Assembly (NCBI GenBank): GCA_944324135.1 | Contig: CALUVE010000009.1 | Coordinates: forward strand, 1-64,000 | Source of the DNA: Candidatus Gastranaerophilales bacterium | GTDB lineage: Bacteria > Cyanobacteriota > Vampirovibrionia > Gastranaerophilales > Gastranaerophilaceae | DNA: 64,000 bases | Reading direction: 5' to 3' | Shown here: positions 39,136 to 45,211 of the stretch, one piece after another | How positions within the stretch are numbered: the first letter of the stretch is position 1 | How the letters are laid out: each line of letters starts with the position of its first letter | Notes under the pieces: generated by a model | Seen by the model: only the letters and a program-made list of their open reading frames with translations | What the model was told of the DNA's origin: nothing | Database searches by the model: none | Position numbers and translations under genes: made by a program

Positions 39136-41586
39136 ATGAGAATCGAAAAAAACGGTAAATCCACTGCAAAAGTTGAACAGAAATCCAAGCAAAACGACAA
39201 TGCAGAAGTTCCTGTATATACTGTAAAACCGGGTGATACTATTACAAAACTCGTCAAAATGTTTAATTTTAAAAACGAGCAGGAGTGTAGAGCGTATTTT
39301 GGGATGAGCGGCAATTCCGTATTGAAAGCCGGTCAGAAATTACAGGTGCCAACGACACCGCTTGAGACGACTTTTACTGCTATTGCCAAGAAATACAATA
39401 TTCCTGTTGCTGATTTAAAGGCTCTTAATCCTCAAATCCAAAATTTTGATGTCCTCAAGAAAAATGCTCCGATTATTACACCTGTGAGACCGTTTGCATC
39501 AAAAGAGGGTTCTGCTCCTGCACAACAGCCACAAACTCCGGCTAAAAAACAAGCCAAACCTGCTGTGGACACCCAACGGGTTAATAAGCCTGACAGTTCA
39601 GTTTCTGCTGCAGCTGATGCTGAAACACCACAGCCAGAAACTGAAATGCAACCGGAGGAGATTGCAAAAGCGCTTAAAAAATCGGCAAATAAGTGGGGGG
39701 CGGTAAGTAAAAAAGCTTTCAAAACTCCGTTTGCCCAAATTGATAAAGATAATGTAATCCAGGTTATCACATCTTATGATTCAATTTCAAAGAATGAATC
39801 ACTTGTAGAAATGATTTGTGATGAAATTACCAACTCAAAAACTACACGTAAGGAGGCTATCACAAAACTTTTTAATACATTATGCGAAAAGGTTGGTCCG
39901 ACCATTGCAAACGATGAGATTAAAAAACAATTCTTTGATGAACTTGAAGATGAATTTGATTCGCTTTTCTGGATTTCAACAAAGAAAATGGACAAAATTA
40001 TAAACCAGATGATTACTGCTTACAAACAGCCAAAACACCAGACGGCTGATCCTGCGGGGGAAACTTCCGGTATTGATAAATACGGTTTTCCGGTATCAAC
40101 TAATAAAACAAAAGTTCATCTCCGTAACGGTAAGACAATGACAATACAGGAGCTCAGAAACGGTGCGCACGCTACGGCAGGTCAAACCGGCGCTTCGGTT
40201 TCACGTCCTGAGCCTGTTATTGATGCTGACGGACATATTGTTGCAAATGTAAAAGAATTTGAACCTACGTTTGACGGAAAGCTGAGTGGCCGTACAATTA
40301 TCGTTAACGCCGGACATGGCGGATATAATCCTAAAAACGGTATATTTGATATAGGCACTTACGCTGACGACGCAAACGGAAAACTTATTGAAGAGTGGTA
40401 TAAAAATAAAAATTTTGTTGATGAAATCATCCCTGCACTGCAGGCACAGGGTGCAAAAGTTGTATATATGAACGGTTCTGCGGCTTGTATTATGAATGCA
40501 AAACGCGAGTATAAGGATGCGGATTTGTTTATTAGTATCCACTGTGATTCTAGTGCTAATGAATCTGCAAACGGTCAGACTATTTTGTACAAGGGCAGCA
40601 GCGATGCCGGTAAAAGGCTTGCATCTGTTGTGGAAAATAATCTTGAGCAGCATGATTGGATTAGTGCGGAAGCTTGTAAAACAAAAGCAGATGACAGAGG
40701 TCTCGGTGTGTTGAATGCAGTTCCTAATATGCCGTCTATACTTATAGAAACCGGTTTTCAATCCAACCCAAAGGATCTTGCAAATATTGATTCTTCAACC
40801 TACAGACAGGGTTTTGCAAAACATTTGACTGATGCAGTTATTGAATATTTCAAGCCGGCGTCTGATGAGCTTTCAGAAGTTACAGAGGATCAGCGCGGTG
40901 AGATTTCTGAAATAGGCTCGCTTGATGATGTTGCTGAACATCTGGGGGTAAGTGAAGATTTTATTTTAAAATTAAAACGAGTTGAAGATGACGGCGAACT
41001 TGGTGATGATGAATTCCACAATGTCAGATATCGCGATAAAGCCGGCAATCTTACAATAGGAATTGGTCATTTGTGGCGAAAAGGCGATCCGACTGAGCTA
41101 TCAGATGCGGAAGTCTGTCAGCTGCTTGCAAGTGATTTATTGAAAGCAGAAAACAGCCTGAAGAAATTAATAGGCAAAGATAATTACAGAAAATTACCTC
41201 AAAGTTTGAAAGAGGCTCTTCTTGATATGACATTTAACAAAGGTATCGGGATTATCAAAAAGGCTGACGGTATGGTTTGGGCGTTGAAAAACGAACGCTA
41301 TGAGGGTGCTATTTGCCGTATGACTGATAACCGTTCTGTTGCGACTAAAAAAGAGATGAGCGGACTCAGCAAACGGAGACTTTTTGATATGGCTCTTGCT
41401 GCTGAAATGTATGACGGTAATCCGCCTGAGTCTGTTATAAGAACAGCTCAGCAAGTTTATAACAGAGGTATCGAGCTTTTGAAAGCTGAGTGCAGAGAAA
41501 AAGGCTTGAACTTCGAAAATCAGCTTGTCGGTTATAATAATGATGTCAAAAACTACTGGGGCAGCAAAATTAAACTCCAAAAATAG
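39136..41586 (+). CDS. LysM / N-acetylmuramoyl-L-alanine amidase / GH24 lysozyme multidomain peptidoglycan hydrolase
   Basis: 816 residues. A LysM domain at about 27-72 (VYTVKPGDTITKLVK), a second weaker LysM at about 78-115, a Pro/Ala-rich linker, and a helical segment of unknown type at about 180-300. An Amidase_3 domain (about 383-575) follows with the zinc motif VNAGHGG, then FISIHCDSSAN and the catalytic ETGFQSN. The C-terminal 200 residues form a T4-lysozyme-like GH24 domain with Glu in LKRVEDDGE and RDKAGNLTIGIGH. It would cut both the stem peptide bond and the glycan strand. There is no signal peptide or TM segment, so its export route is unclear. AAAAGG precedes the ATG. Confidence 0.88.
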   Translation: MRIEKNGKSTAKVEQKSKQNDNAEVPVYTVKPGDTITKLVKMFNFKNEQECRAYFGMSGNSVLKAGQKLQVPTTPLETTFTAIAKKYNIPVADLKALNPQIQNFDVLKKNAPIITPVRPFASKEGSAPAQQPQTPAKKQAKPAVDTQRVNKPDSSVSAAADAETPQPETEMQPEEIAKALKKSANKWGAVSKKAFKTPFAQIDKDNVIQVITSYDSISKNESLVEMICDEITNSKTTRKEAITKLFNTLCEKVGPTIANDEIKKQFFDELEDEFDSLFWISTKKMDKIINQMITAYKQPKHQTADPAGETSGIDKYGFPVSTNKTKVHLRNGKTMTIQELRNGAHATAGQTGASVSRPEPVIDADGHIVANVKEFEPTFDGKLSGRTIIVNAGHGGYNPKNGIFDIGTYADDANGKLIEEWYKNKNFVDEIIPALQAQGAKVVYMNGSAACIMNAKREYKDADLFISIHCDSSANESANGQTILYKGSSDAGKRLASVVENNLEQHDWISAEACKTKADDRGLGVLNAVPNMPSILIETGFQSNPKDLANIDSSTYRQGFAKHLTDAVIEYFKPASDELSEVTEDQRGEISEIGSLDDVAEHLGVSEDFILKLKRVEDDGELGDDEFHNVRYRDKAGNLTIGIGHLWRKGDPTELSDAEVCQLLASDLLKAENSLKKLIGKDNYRKLPQSLKEALLDMTFNKGIGIIKKADGMVWALKNERYEGAICRMTDNRSVATKKEMSGLSKRRLFDMALAAEMYDGNPPESVIRTAQQVYNRGIELLKAECREKGLNFENQLVGYNNDVKNYWGSKIKLQK

Positions 41587-41589
41587 TAT

Positions 41590-42531
41590 TTATTGATTTT
41601 GTTTGTAGTTAGCAAGAGTATTATTTATTAAATCTTTCATTTTTGCTTTGAATGATTTCGGAGATATGACTTCGCAATCAAAGCCGTATCTCATTAATCT
41701 TTTTAATAGCTCCCTATGATCTTCATTTTTGTTTACTATTACAAGATGCCCTTTTTCGTCAAGACCTTTGGAGGTTTCTCCTTCTTTAAGTTTATAGGTT
41801 TTGGCAAGTCTGGATTTTAGTTTGTAAACTACTGTCATACTCAAACAGGTGTTGCCGGATTTTGTCGGAAATTGTTCTATCCGCTTGATTTCGTTTAGCG
41901 GAATGTCGTGGATTTCATTTGTAGCTGTGTTGAATACAGAAAAACATATTTTGCTTTTATGGTATTTTACTTCCTGAGGTATCGCGATAATTGTTTCTTC
42001 TTCATTTTTAGTGTTTACGTAATGAATTTTTAGTTTGAATTTTTCAGTGCAATAATTTTCGCACTCCTCAATTAGTTTTTCGTATTCCGAAAAATAGAAT
42101 TTAAAGTGCATTATACTATCTTTGTCTGAAGAGTTTGTCTGAAGCTGTGATTTCATGTTATCAGGTATCATAGCTTCAATTTTTTTTAGCAGCTGAAGAA
42201 AATTTTTCTTGTTCTTCCCGTTTGGAAAAACTTCCATAAAATCTGAAAGCAGATTAACCGCTTCAATATCACCTGCAGACATCTCTAGACTCAGGGGCGG
42301 ATTCAGCAGATAAAATTTTTTGTTGTGTTTTTTTATTTTCAGTCCGAAAATCTTAAGTGTGTTAAGGTATTTATTTAGAATGACTGTTGGGTTATTTTTG
42401 CCCTCTTTGCCTGTTGAAAACAGTTCTATTACTTTGTCATAATCAGCGCAGTCCTCTGTCATCATCTTTATAAGCTGAAACATCTTAATGCATGAATCAT
42501 TATATTTTTCTGGAAGTTTTTTATCAGTCAT
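41590..42531 (-). CDS. WYL-domain transcriptional regulator 1
   Basis: 313 residues. N-terminal winged helix-turn-helix (about 15-75) and a C-terminal WYL domain, which binds nucleic acid or nucleotide ligands. The WYL part starts near LKIHYVNTKNEEET and includes EIHDIPLNEIKRIEQFPTK. Its ATG overlaps the end of the neighbour gene by 8 bases. It is a paralogue of the next gene, similar in length and layout. It ends 3 bases from the convergent hydrolase gene. Confidence 0.78.
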   Translation of the reverse strand: MTDKKLPEKYNDSCIKMFQLIKMMTEDCADYDKVIELFSTGKEGKNNPTVILNKYLNTLKIFGLKIKKHNKKFYLLNPPLSLEMSAGDIEAVNLLSDFMEVFPNGKNKKNFLQLLKKIEAMIPDNMKSQLQTNSSDKDSIMHFKFYFSEYEKLIEECENYCTEKFKLKIHYVNTKNEEETIIAIPQEVKYHKSKICFSVFNTATNEIHDIPLNEIKRIEQFPTKSGNTCLSMTVVYKLKSRLAKTYKLKEGETSKGLDEKGHLVIVNKNEDHRELLKRLMRYGFDCEVISPKSFKAKMKDLINNTLANYKQNQ

Positions 42532-43462
42532 TTTTATAAACCTCCTGCATTTGTTTCAGTGTTGCGATAATTTCATCTTTATAGTTTTGCGGTGATATGA
42601 CTTCGCAGCTGTCTCCGTAGGATAAAATCCTTTGCGTTATGAAGAATTTGTTTGAGTTTTTTATTTTTATGGTTGTGTAGGTTTCGTCACTTGAAACTAT
42701 TTCTTCATTTTCTTGAAGCGATATTTCATTTTTGTTTAAATTCGTTCTGTAGAAAACTTCTATCTCCTCTGGAGTTTCGAGATGTTCTTTTATTTCAGTT
42801 GCTACTATTTCTATAATTCTTGAGACAAGATAGCTGCTGTATTTGTTATATTCGTAACTCGTACCGTAGAGGTATAGTTTAGAGTTCGTAAATTCCAGTT
42901 TGTCGGCTTTTACTTCAATGTTTTTTATGCTGGAGTTTGGTGAATTATATTTTATGATTATTGAATGTTTTCGTTTGCAGGCGTTGAGTAGTTCTTCAAG
43001 CAGCTTTTTGTCGATGTTATTTAGAAGTGAAATTTCTTCCAGCGTCTGTGTATATTTTTCGTTTTTTACCAGTGATGCCAGTTTAAAAAAGAATTTTTCA
43101 AGGTACATCAAGTCTTCGACACTGATATTTTTTGAGATTGATTTATAAACTTTTGCTATGCTGTTTATCTGGTCGTCTGTAATTCTAATTTCAAAAGGAT
43201 TGTTCATCAGAACATATTTGGCGCCTTGTGATTTTTTTGTCCGTTCTATTTTGCAGCCGATTCTCTCAAGAGAATTTATGTAAACTCTCAAGGTGTCAAT
43301 AGATATTTTTTCATGCAGATACGGATGGTTAAAAAAATGTTCGTTGATTTCTTCATAGCTTTTCGGGGATTCTGCAAGCAAAGAAAAAAGCAATAGTGCC
43401 TTAAATCCGGTGAAAGACATTAGATTGTATGTCACAGTCTTTGTTTTGAGAAATTCTTTCAT
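42524..43462 (-). CDS. WYL-domain transcriptional regulator 2
   Basis: 312 residues, upstream of its paralogue in one operon (8-base overlap). N-terminal winged helix-turn-helix (YEEINEHFFNHP and DTLRVYINSLERIGCKI) and a C-terminal WYL domain (SIIIKYNSPNSSIKNIEVKA, YLVSRIIEIVATEIKEHL). Tandem WYL regulators that act as a heterodimer are known from PafBC (DNA-damage response) in actinobacteria; whether this pair does likewise is inference. GAGGG lies about 12 bases before the ATG. A palindromic site lies 59 bases upstream. Confidence 0.8.
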   Translation of the reverse strand: MKEFLKTKTVTYNLMSFTGFKALLLFSLLAESPKSYEEINEHFFNHPYLHEKISIDTLRVYINSLERIGCKIERTKKSQGAKYVLMNNPFEIRITDDQINSIAKVYKSISKNISVEDLMYLEKFFFKLASLVKNEKYTQTLEEISLLNNIDKKLLEELLNACKRKHSIIIKYNSPNSSIKNIEVKADKLEFTNSKLYLYGTSYEYNKYSSYLVSRIIEIVATEIKEHLETPEEIEVFYRTNLNKNEISLQENEEIVSSDETYTTIKIKNSNKFFITQRILSYGDSCEVISPQNYKDEIIATLKQMQEVYKND

Positions 43463-43520
43463 GTTTATTAAGTCCCTCTTTTTATATTACTATAAATTTT
43501 GTATTTGTGAGTAATTGTTA

Positions 43521-43533
43521 AGTGAAATTCACT
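43521..43533. promoter_or_regulatory. Candidate operator dyad upstream of the WYL operon
   Basis: AGTGAAATTCACT is a 6-bp perfect dyad with a single central base. It lies upstream of a likely promoter for the WYL gene. It may be an autoregulatory binding site. No match is known to me. Confidence 0.35.
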
Positions 43534-43715
43534 GTTTCCAAAACTTTCCGCAGCATGCTTTTTTGCTCCGTTTAAAAAAAATATTGTCAACAAAAACACA
43601 GAGAAATTTTACGTAATTTCATTAAAAAAACTTCATTAAGATTTAAGAACTTGAATTTTTTACGATTAAACTGCGGGGCATGGTCAATTGTAAAATTTAT
43701 TTAATTTTTTTTTAC

Positions 43716-43744
43716 TTGTCAAACATTTAACTTAGTTTTACATT
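43716..43744 (+). promoter_or_regulatory. Candidate sigma-70 promoter of the ncRNA
   Basis: TTGTCA (-35) and TACATT (-10) separated by exactly 17 bases. Transcription would start near 43752. Confidence 0.55.
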
Positions 43745-43751
43745 AATATCA

Positions 43752-44062
43752 TAAGGAAAAACAAAGGATAGTTTGAATCCGGTTCCTTAAAAAGGTTAAG
43801 CTAAAAAAAAGAATGGCTGCCGGAAAATACGTTACTATATTGAAAATTGGACAGAAGAAAAAGAGGTGATGGCTTAAAAGGTCCGTGTTCGGAGAGGAAG
43901 ATTAAGAAAAACAGATTAAAAACGGTTACAACTGCATGAGGTGTGAGTAGATTAGGGATATTTTTTATTGGGAGATTAAGAAGATTAAATCTTTGGTTTT
44001 GGGATTAAAACAAGACAGTTGATAACTTAGTTAAAAGCCTTGCCTATCGGCAGGCTTTTTTG
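43752..44062 (+). ncRNA. Candidate non-coding RNA of about 310 nt, not recognised
   Basis: The 612-base stretch between the WYL genes and anmK has no plausible protein gene but has a 17-base-spaced promoter and an intrinsic terminator on the plus strand. The implied RNA is purine-rich and contains nine GGA and six GATTA motifs, the latter concentrated in its second half. It lacks the conserved GAGGAAAGUCC core of RNase P RNA, the tmRNA tRNA-like ends, and the SRP RNA tetraloop region. It could be a trans-acting regulator or a long leader with a terminator in front of anmK. Nothing else is visible from 43463 to 43715 beyond AT-rich DNA and the dyad at 43521. Confidence 0.5.
44033..44061 (+). 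terminator. Intrinsic terminator of the candidate ncRNA
   Basis: AAAAGCC and GGCTTTT pair, with a bulged T, followed by TGCC/GGCA and the loop TATC. T6 follows the stem. It overlaps the -10 region of anmK. Confidence 0.85.
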
Positions 44063-44068
44063 TATCAT
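44063..44068 (+). promoter_or_regulatory. -10 candidate (TATCAT) six bases before the anmK ATG
   Basis: The box lies right after the terminator U-run. No ribosome-binding site precedes the ATG. Confidence 0.4.
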
Positions 44069-44074
44069 AGGCGT

Positions 44075-45211
44075 ATGAACGGTGAATTGGAATCAAAAAA
44101 AATTATCGGGTTAATGTCAGGTACTTCCTGTGACAGTATAGATGCAGCATTGTGCATTGTACATCCTGATTTAAGGACTGAAATTATTCAGGGTATCAAT
44201 TATAAGTATCCTGAACATATCAGAGCTAAACTTTTCCAAATTTTCAGGGGCGAAGCCTCTGTCAAGGATTTGTGCCAGATGAATTTTGCAGTTGGAAAAT
44301 GTTTTGCTGATGCATGTAATATTTTAATATCAGAGCATGGCAAACCTGATTTTATATCCAGCCACGGGCAGACCGTCTATCATTTCCCCTTTGACGAGAT
44401 GCTTGATAATGTTTCTCTCAAAAGTACTTTTCAAATAGGAGAAAGCTCTGTTATATCAAAAGAAACCGGATGCGATGTTATTTCAAATTTTCGTGAGGGA
44501 GATATAGCAGCTGGCGGCGAGGGGGCGCCTCTGGTTTGTTTTGCAGATGAAAAATGGTTTAAGACAACAGACAGAACTATTGCTGTGCAAAATATTGGCG
44601 GTATATCCAATGTCACAGTACTTGGAAAAAACTTTGACACTTTCGGGTTTGATACAGGACTTGGAAATATTATGATTGATTACTGCATGAATAAATTTTT
44701 CTCAAAGCCCTATGACAAAGACGGTGAAGTTGCAAAATCCGGATGTATCTGTGAAAGCTGGCTTGATTGTCTTATGCAAGACGAATATTATTTCAAAGCT
44801 CCTCCTAAAACTACAGGCAGAGAATATTTTTCACCACGGTATATAGAAAATGCACTCAAGTTTGCTCCTGAAAACAAAGCAGATGTTATCGCAACGGTTA
44901 CTGCGCTTACTGCAAAGACTATAGCGGCTGCTTACGAAAGATTTATTGCTCCTGTTGCCGAAGTTGAGGAAGTGATTGTTGGAGGCGGCGGAGCTTACAA
45001 CCCTGCACTAATGAATTTTTTAAAGTCTTATCTTCCAAATCATGTTTTGCTTAAAACTCACGAAGATTACGGTATCTCCAATAACTTTAAAGAAGCGATG
45101 GCTTTTGCACTTCTTGGATATTGTACATATTATCATATTCCTAATAATCTCCCCTGCTGTACCGGTGCACAAAAACGCGTTGTTATGGGGAAAATTACCT
45201 CACTTTATTAA
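44075..45211 (+). CDS. anmK: 1,6-anhydro-N-acetylmuramic acid kinase
   Basis: Opens and phosphorylates anhydro-MurNAc, a peptidoglycan recycling step, to MurNAc-6-phosphate. 378 residues. IIGLMSGTSCDSIDAAL is the ATP-binding start, FISSHGQTVYHFP the sugar-binding motif with the catalytic Asp region in IAVQNIGGISNVT, and IVGGGGAYNP the C-terminal glycine motif. I use MNGELESKK as the start; a TTG five codons earlier is an alternative, but it lies in the terminator. It stands next to the lysozyme-amidase neighbourhood, but its own operon partner is not evident. Confidence 0.95.
   Translation: MNGELESKKIIGLMSGTSCDSIDAALCIVHPDLRTEIIQGINYKYPEHIRAKLFQIFRGEASVKDLCQMNFAVGKCFADACNILISEHGKPDFISSHGQTVYHFPFDEMLDNVSLKSTFQIGESSVISKETGCDVISNFREGDIAAGGEGAPLVCFADEKWFKTTDRTIAVQNIGGISNVTVLGKNFDTFGFDTGLGNIMIDYCMNKFFSKPYDKDGEVAKSGCICESWLDCLMQDEYYFKAPPKTTGREYFSPRYIENALKFAPENKADVIATVTALTAKTIAAAYERFIAPVAEVEEVIVGGGGAYNPALMNFLKSYLPNHVLLKTHEDYGISNNFKEAMAFALLGYCTYYHIPNNLPCCTGAQKRVVMGKITSLY

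Follow-up and report, generated by a model that had tools for sequence, protein, structure and literature searches.

A predicted order-wide small-RNA gene of Candidatus Gastranaerophilales with a start-site-like core and a possible role at the ribosome

Described RNA classes and the locus

The small RNA SprF1 is antisense to a toxin mRNA. By means of its purine-rich 5' sequence it competes with mRNA for ribosomes (PMC8938821). In cry3A mRNA, the Shine-Dalgarno (SD) element STAB-SD binds 16S rRNA and blocks RNase J1 without directing translation (PMC4113751). Two other classes are relevant here, the GGA-containing CsrB/RsmZ decoys and 6S RNA, a conserved single-copy regulatory RNA found in the same genomes as the RNA studied here. 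Gastranaerophilales, which are related to cyanobacteria, are widespread in the gut; our literature search found no study on small RNAs of their own.

In this study, we propose a small-RNA gene in a 64-kb window (the whole stretch of DNA that was analysed) of a Gastranaerophilales genome. Similar to SprF1-type ribosome-associated RNAs, it would be a small RNA with a purine-rich sequence resembling a ribosome-binding site, for which competition with mRNA at initiation is proposed. It differs from SprF1 by a conserved start codon within this core and by being chromosomal, single copy and order-wide, with docking as a prediction. Like the STAB-SD of the cry3A 5' UTR, it has an SD sequence with complementarity to the 16S 3' end and no necessary role in directing translation; here, however, the RNA is free-standing, its RUG-GC start site is conserved and the element is often far from the 5' end.

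The gene lies in a gene-free gap of 612 bases (43463-44074), directly followed by the anmK ATG at 44075. The first-pass annotation had described a -35 box TTGTCA, a 17-nt spacer, a -10 box TACATT and a terminator in a gap of this size, all of which we recover at the same positions. The elements of the locus are the following:

43631..43656, + strand: distal conserved promoter box (CTTCATTAAGATTTAAGAACTTGAA), a putative activator site at about -105; from alignments of 23 and 71 loci and included in model R1
43675..43695, + strand: proximal conserved promoter box GGGGCATGGTCAATTGTAAAA, then an A/T-rich UP-element-like stretch; from 17-mer matches
43716..43744, + strand: predicted sigma-70 promoter TTGTCA-17-TACATT with an expected start site near 43751; the pattern TTG-16/18-TAnnnT is retained at 129/144 homologous loci
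43751..44062, + strand: predicted RNA gene of about 312 nt from promoter to terminator, its body poorly conserved
43813..43824, + strand: motif RCGGCURCCGGA (here AUGGCUGCCGGA), confined to the clade whose 5' region is long
43849..43884, + strand: possible stem GGAC (43849-43852)/GUCC (43881-43884) with the core in its loop, clade-limited
43863..43873, + strand: universal core GAGGUG-AUGG-C, with the SD sequence GAGGUGAU overlapping an AUG (43869-43871), then an Ala codon
43950..43960, + strand: second motif GAUURGGGAU, from motif search and k-mer enrichment
44033..44061, + strand: predicted intrinsic terminator, with an equivalent in 84/131 loci
44063..44068, + strand: -10 box TATCAT of a putative leaderless anmK promoter, outside the RNA, in 47/79 anmK-linked loci

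Taken by itself, the window says little about an RNA gene. In the AT-rich gap, promoters (6 found, 4.1 expected) and terminators (1 found, 0.8 expected) do not exceed chance, and the whole RNA folds no better than shuffled sequences (z = 0.17). The case for the gene therefore rests on its relatives, and it is through conservation among homologous loci that we take the predicted promoter and terminator to be real. Where the terminator is convincing, the predicted RNA measures 93-345 nt across homologs.

Three readings had been put forward in the first-pass annotation, i.e., a CsrB-like decoy, an unknown sRNA or a long attenuator leader of anmK. The second is supported, since comparison reveals an order-wide single-copy RNA gene without an Rfam match; the other two fall. 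The decoy reading drew on nine GGA triplets, and the counts given for 43751-44062 (nine GGA, six GATTA) are correct. Yet the GGA count does not exceed chance (mononucleotide shuffling predicts 6.98, and 24% of the shuffles reach nine), while GATTA is enriched (0.85 expected, with 0/2000 shuffles reaching six). In addition, a PF02599 search found no csrA in this genome or in the other genomes of its genus (four in all, 98-99% complete), and the RNA has no Csr/Rsm family match by covariance model. A CsrB/RsmY/RsmZ-type sponge for CsrA is thus refuted for this genome, and we consider its probability negligible. In the family as a whole (f1), csrA is patchy: of 36 genomes searched, 24 lack it (including all four of the genus) and 12 have it. 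In the order's other families, most genomes have kept it. The RNA occurs in genomes with or without csrA.

With cmscan at gathering score, no Rfam 15 family matches the window or 16 homologs. Among 8 loci from other families, searched at E values up to 0.5, the only matches are two sub-gathering ones to Plastid-psbA-3 in locus L295, downstream of the core; candidates at such permissive thresholds are chance matches only. 6S RNA (RF00013) is encoded at a separate locus (G000:C2:27288-27470), and the RNA gene of the window has neither the 6S fold nor a match to its model.

Conservation of the promoter and spread across the order

The comparison of intergenic regions among relatives, as suggested earlier, is most informative upstream of the RNA. 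In a search of 59 genomes, the promoter region 43640-43748, within the conserved block 43631-43748, retains 81-89% identity in other genera and is better conserved than the RNA body, which evolves fast, with indels, around its core. An alignment of 71 loci displays the two boxes, CTTCATTAAG-ATTGTAAA and GGGGCATGGTCAATTGTAAAA, followed by TTG-17-TAnnnT. The 17-mer GGCATGGTCAATTGTAA of the proximal box occurs at no more than one mismatch in 185/288 genomes of the family, nearly always once in each; elsewhere in the window's genome the next-best matches have three mismatches, which is chance level. The sequence-only promoter model R1 gives a single strong match (E <= 6e-6) in 90/95 genomes of the family, and all five misses belong to one genus (g22). 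Its application to 22 genomes of other families gave nothing above chance. As far as R1 can see, both promoter boxes thus appear family-specific. A conserved promoter can in this way reveal fast-evolving, unstructured RNAs that covariance models miss.

The 18-mer of this promoter is also carried by four public MAG contigs (L185, L199, L214, L162) that are labelled Clostridiaceae, Clostridiales, Heliobacteriaceae or Verrucomicrobia. These labels look wrong or the bins mixed, with a chance match possible for single cases.

Downstream of the promoter, one short element is nearly universal. Its consensus is GRRGUG-RUGG-C, and the pattern G[AG][AG]GTG[AG]TGG is present in 143/144 loci, versus 4/2880 shuffled bodies and 0/144 antisense sequences. 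Indeed, all 13 loci that were fetched through R1, where the 17-mer is diverged or missing, have the core, including the weak match G130 from genus g22. The single exception, L011, has a well conserved promoter and no recognisable core, either by natural loss of the RNA or as an assembly artefact.

Beyond the family, the core pattern is matched in 11/22 genomes from other families of the order. One of the matches fetched (L300, from G042) is coding and was rejected as an RNA locus. The loci L295-L299 and L301-L305 (families f2 to f7) are intergenic and place the core roughly 12-40 nt past a -10-like box, several with a visible terminator. The convergent gene downstream of L295 (f7), L301 (f2) and L302 (f4) belongs to one family, and in genus g50 of the window's own family (L054, L055) the RNA is followed by this gene too; the common neighbour speaks for orthology of the RNA loci. 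In photosynthetic cyanobacteria the core pattern occurs at about control frequency, and in another family of the same class it was found in 0/5 genomes. The common ancestor of the order thus probably had this RNA. Comparison shows what we predict to be an autonomous single-copy small-RNA gene throughout Candidatus Gastranaerophilales, with its own conserved promoter and mostly a terminator. On this comparative basis we regard the RNA family as real, new and order-wide, its core as strong and unusual, and its function as what we infer from the core.

The start-site-like core and its proposed function

The core has the features of a translation start. Its SD form GAGGUGAU is complementary over 8 contiguous nt to the 3' end of 16S rRNA in the family (...GGAUCACCUCCUUUCU), and the alternative form AAAGGAG over 7; the 16S sequence was taken from a family member (L285, genome G035) because the window's assembly has no exact match to the 3'-end pattern. 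Either form is thus able to pair with the anti-SD, as expected of a ribosome-associated ncRNA. Among the 143 loci the start codon is AUG (132) or GUG (11), with no other change, and codon 2 keeps GC or GU with a free wobble base. The distance from the SD to the start codon is 2 nt, compared to mostly 5-10 nt for the genes in the window.

A translated micro-ORF or dual-function RNA, in which initiation at the AUG would give a di- to oligopeptide or couple translation to transcription of the RNA, is suggested by the combination of SD, RUG and codon-like wobble freedom at codon 2, and at one locus (L101) the frame that starts at the AUG continues into anmK. The reading frame after the core, however, is not conserved (MA*, MAK*, MAKS* or longer unrelated peptides) and varies even within a genus. 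Immediate stops are in excess (codon 3 is TAA or TAG in 34/143 loci) and the 2-nt spacing also counts against translation. With neither frame length nor peptide conserved, we have rejected a protein-coding reading, and we hold the micro-ORF to be very unlikely.

The core could also be an RNA-RNA or sponge element that, by its likeness to the start of an mRNA, would titrate another sRNA or base-pair with CCUC-rich targets, the A/G alternation reflecting G-U pairing. A change from AUG to GUG would indeed be neutral for pairing with U, and the GUG-R-UGG positions are fixed like a seed. Yet the SD variants (GAGG, GGAG, GGGG) all keep complementarity to the anti-SD, while with a single, invariant other partner they would pair less well, and no such partner RNA is known. 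We judge this alternative distinctly unlikely.

Since the sole near-universal part of the RNA resembles a ribosome docking site without a conserved protein, the RNA probably acts on ribosomes and would be neither a CsrA sponge nor a switch that controls anmK. We propose that it is transcribed when its own promoter is switched on and that a 30S subunit or initiation complex would dock at the start-site mimic. With an SD too near the start codon for normal initiation, and with a frame that often stops after a few codons, the RNA would hold or recycle subunits, by which translation initiation would be lowered or tuned in the manner of ribosome-associated RNAs such as SprF1. To this reading, an autonomous 30S-docking regulatory RNA that mimics a start site, we tentatively assign a probability of about 0.4. 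A more far-reaching form of it, in which a perfect-looking, unproductive start site under its own promoter element would serve, once per genome and order-wide, as a dedicated ribosome-titrating RNA (a "6S RNA for the 30S subunit"), seems to us rather unlikely. If the core is indeed a start-site mimic, control of ribosomes by RNA would have a clear candidate in this order-wide single-copy RNA.

Two observations count against docking. First, the core is just average in accessibility relative to the remainder of the RNA, even though shuffled flanks leave it slightly less open (0.463 unpaired, versus 0.508 with its own flanks, p = 0.002). Second, one locus (L011) has the promoter without the core. 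In addition, the core may serve another purpose, for example stabilisation, because the motifs GAUURGGGAU and CGGCURCCGGA are left unexplained by docking. In this main alternative, the SD/start core would only protect the RNA, a docked 30S subunit blocking degradation, and the effectors would lie elsewhere, for example in GAUURGGGAU, and would act by base-pairing on mRNAs. The STAB-SD precedent (PMC4113751), the proximity of the core to the 5' end in other families and in many genera of f1, and the very existence of a second conserved motif are in line with protection. In the clade of the window, however, the core is about 100 nt away from the 5' end and the 5' part would be left unprotected. 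Docking of a 30S subunit alone, moreover, needs no conserved start codon or codon 2, and GAUURGGGAU is not universal: it or a close variant occurs in 99/144 loci (1/144 antisense). We consider protection as the sole role of the core an unlikely explanation.

The 11-mer of the core has two copies in the 1.82-Mb genome, the second inside a prophage-like gene. A region that reads like a prophage portal gene (L284 1498-1511; similar in L286-L293) is common to many genomes; chance or a constraint on the coding sequence would explain the core 14-mer in it. The second core matches in several f1 genomes (eight sampled, L286-L293) read like this portal gene and were rejected as RNA.

Neighbouring genes, further motifs and structure

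The gene anmK serves the recycling of anhydromuropeptides. It lies downstream of the RNA in 74/131 loci, and at two loci (L101, L105) the RNA body is lost and the core is directly followed by anmK, which gives some ground for the earlier idea of an attenuator or leader of this gene. Linkage is not constant, however, as 57/131 loci have no adjacent anmK in the stretches fetched. Other genes follow the RNA instead, by inspection rather than family search a phosphopentomutase, SecD, a LeuC-like gene and RibF. Moreover, anmK appears to have a promoter of its own. The -10-like box about 12 bases before its ATG, counted above, compares to about 6 loci expected from other offsets. Where a terminator exists, the box is placed after it, and at the window locus it directly follows the sRNA terminator. 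This suggests that anmK is transcribed from its own promoter as a leaderless mRNA, the ATG (44075-44077) being at the expected start site. As a general explanation the leader is refuted, and we regard it as extremely unlikely.

Upstream of the RNA, a divergent WYL pair is present in 61/131 loci, and 54 loci have neither anmK nor the WYL pair in the stretch fetched. In the window, this pair (41590-43462) consists of tandem diverged WYL/WCX regulators in a PafB/PafC-like layout that is found order-wide, divergent from the RNA gene. A role as dedicated regulator of the RNA was considered and is not supported, because WYL homologs also occur in families without an R1 match and are often unlinked. 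Further upstream, 39136-41586 encodes an 816-aa protein with LysM, N-acetylmuramoyl-L-alanine amidase (Amidase_3) and phage lysozyme domains, with anmK close by.

In addition to the core, the motif RCGGCURCCGGA is found within four mismatches of its consensus in 56 loci, among 63 whose 5' region measures 40 nt or more. In the clade of the window, the RNA may also contact 16S helix 45 on its 5' strand through ACGGCUACC, which is complementary to this strand over 9 nt (16S position 1485). We treat this pairing only as a lead, because further stretches of the 16S can pair as well if wobble is allowed, and the match is lost in some variants.

The covarying stems that the first-pass annotation suggested to look for are found in part. 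Around the core, the two arms of a stem change together in some loci (GGAC/GUCC, CGGAUG/CAUCCG, AUCGGA/UCCGAU). The stem is limited to some clades, and in the cis versus trans control 8/300 permutations reach the observed mean. With the whole RNA at shuffle level, a conserved secondary structure was rejected. In the genera of L082 and L127, the large bacterial SRP RNA gene is encoded on the same strand as the RNA gene and precedes it by no more than a few hundred bases.
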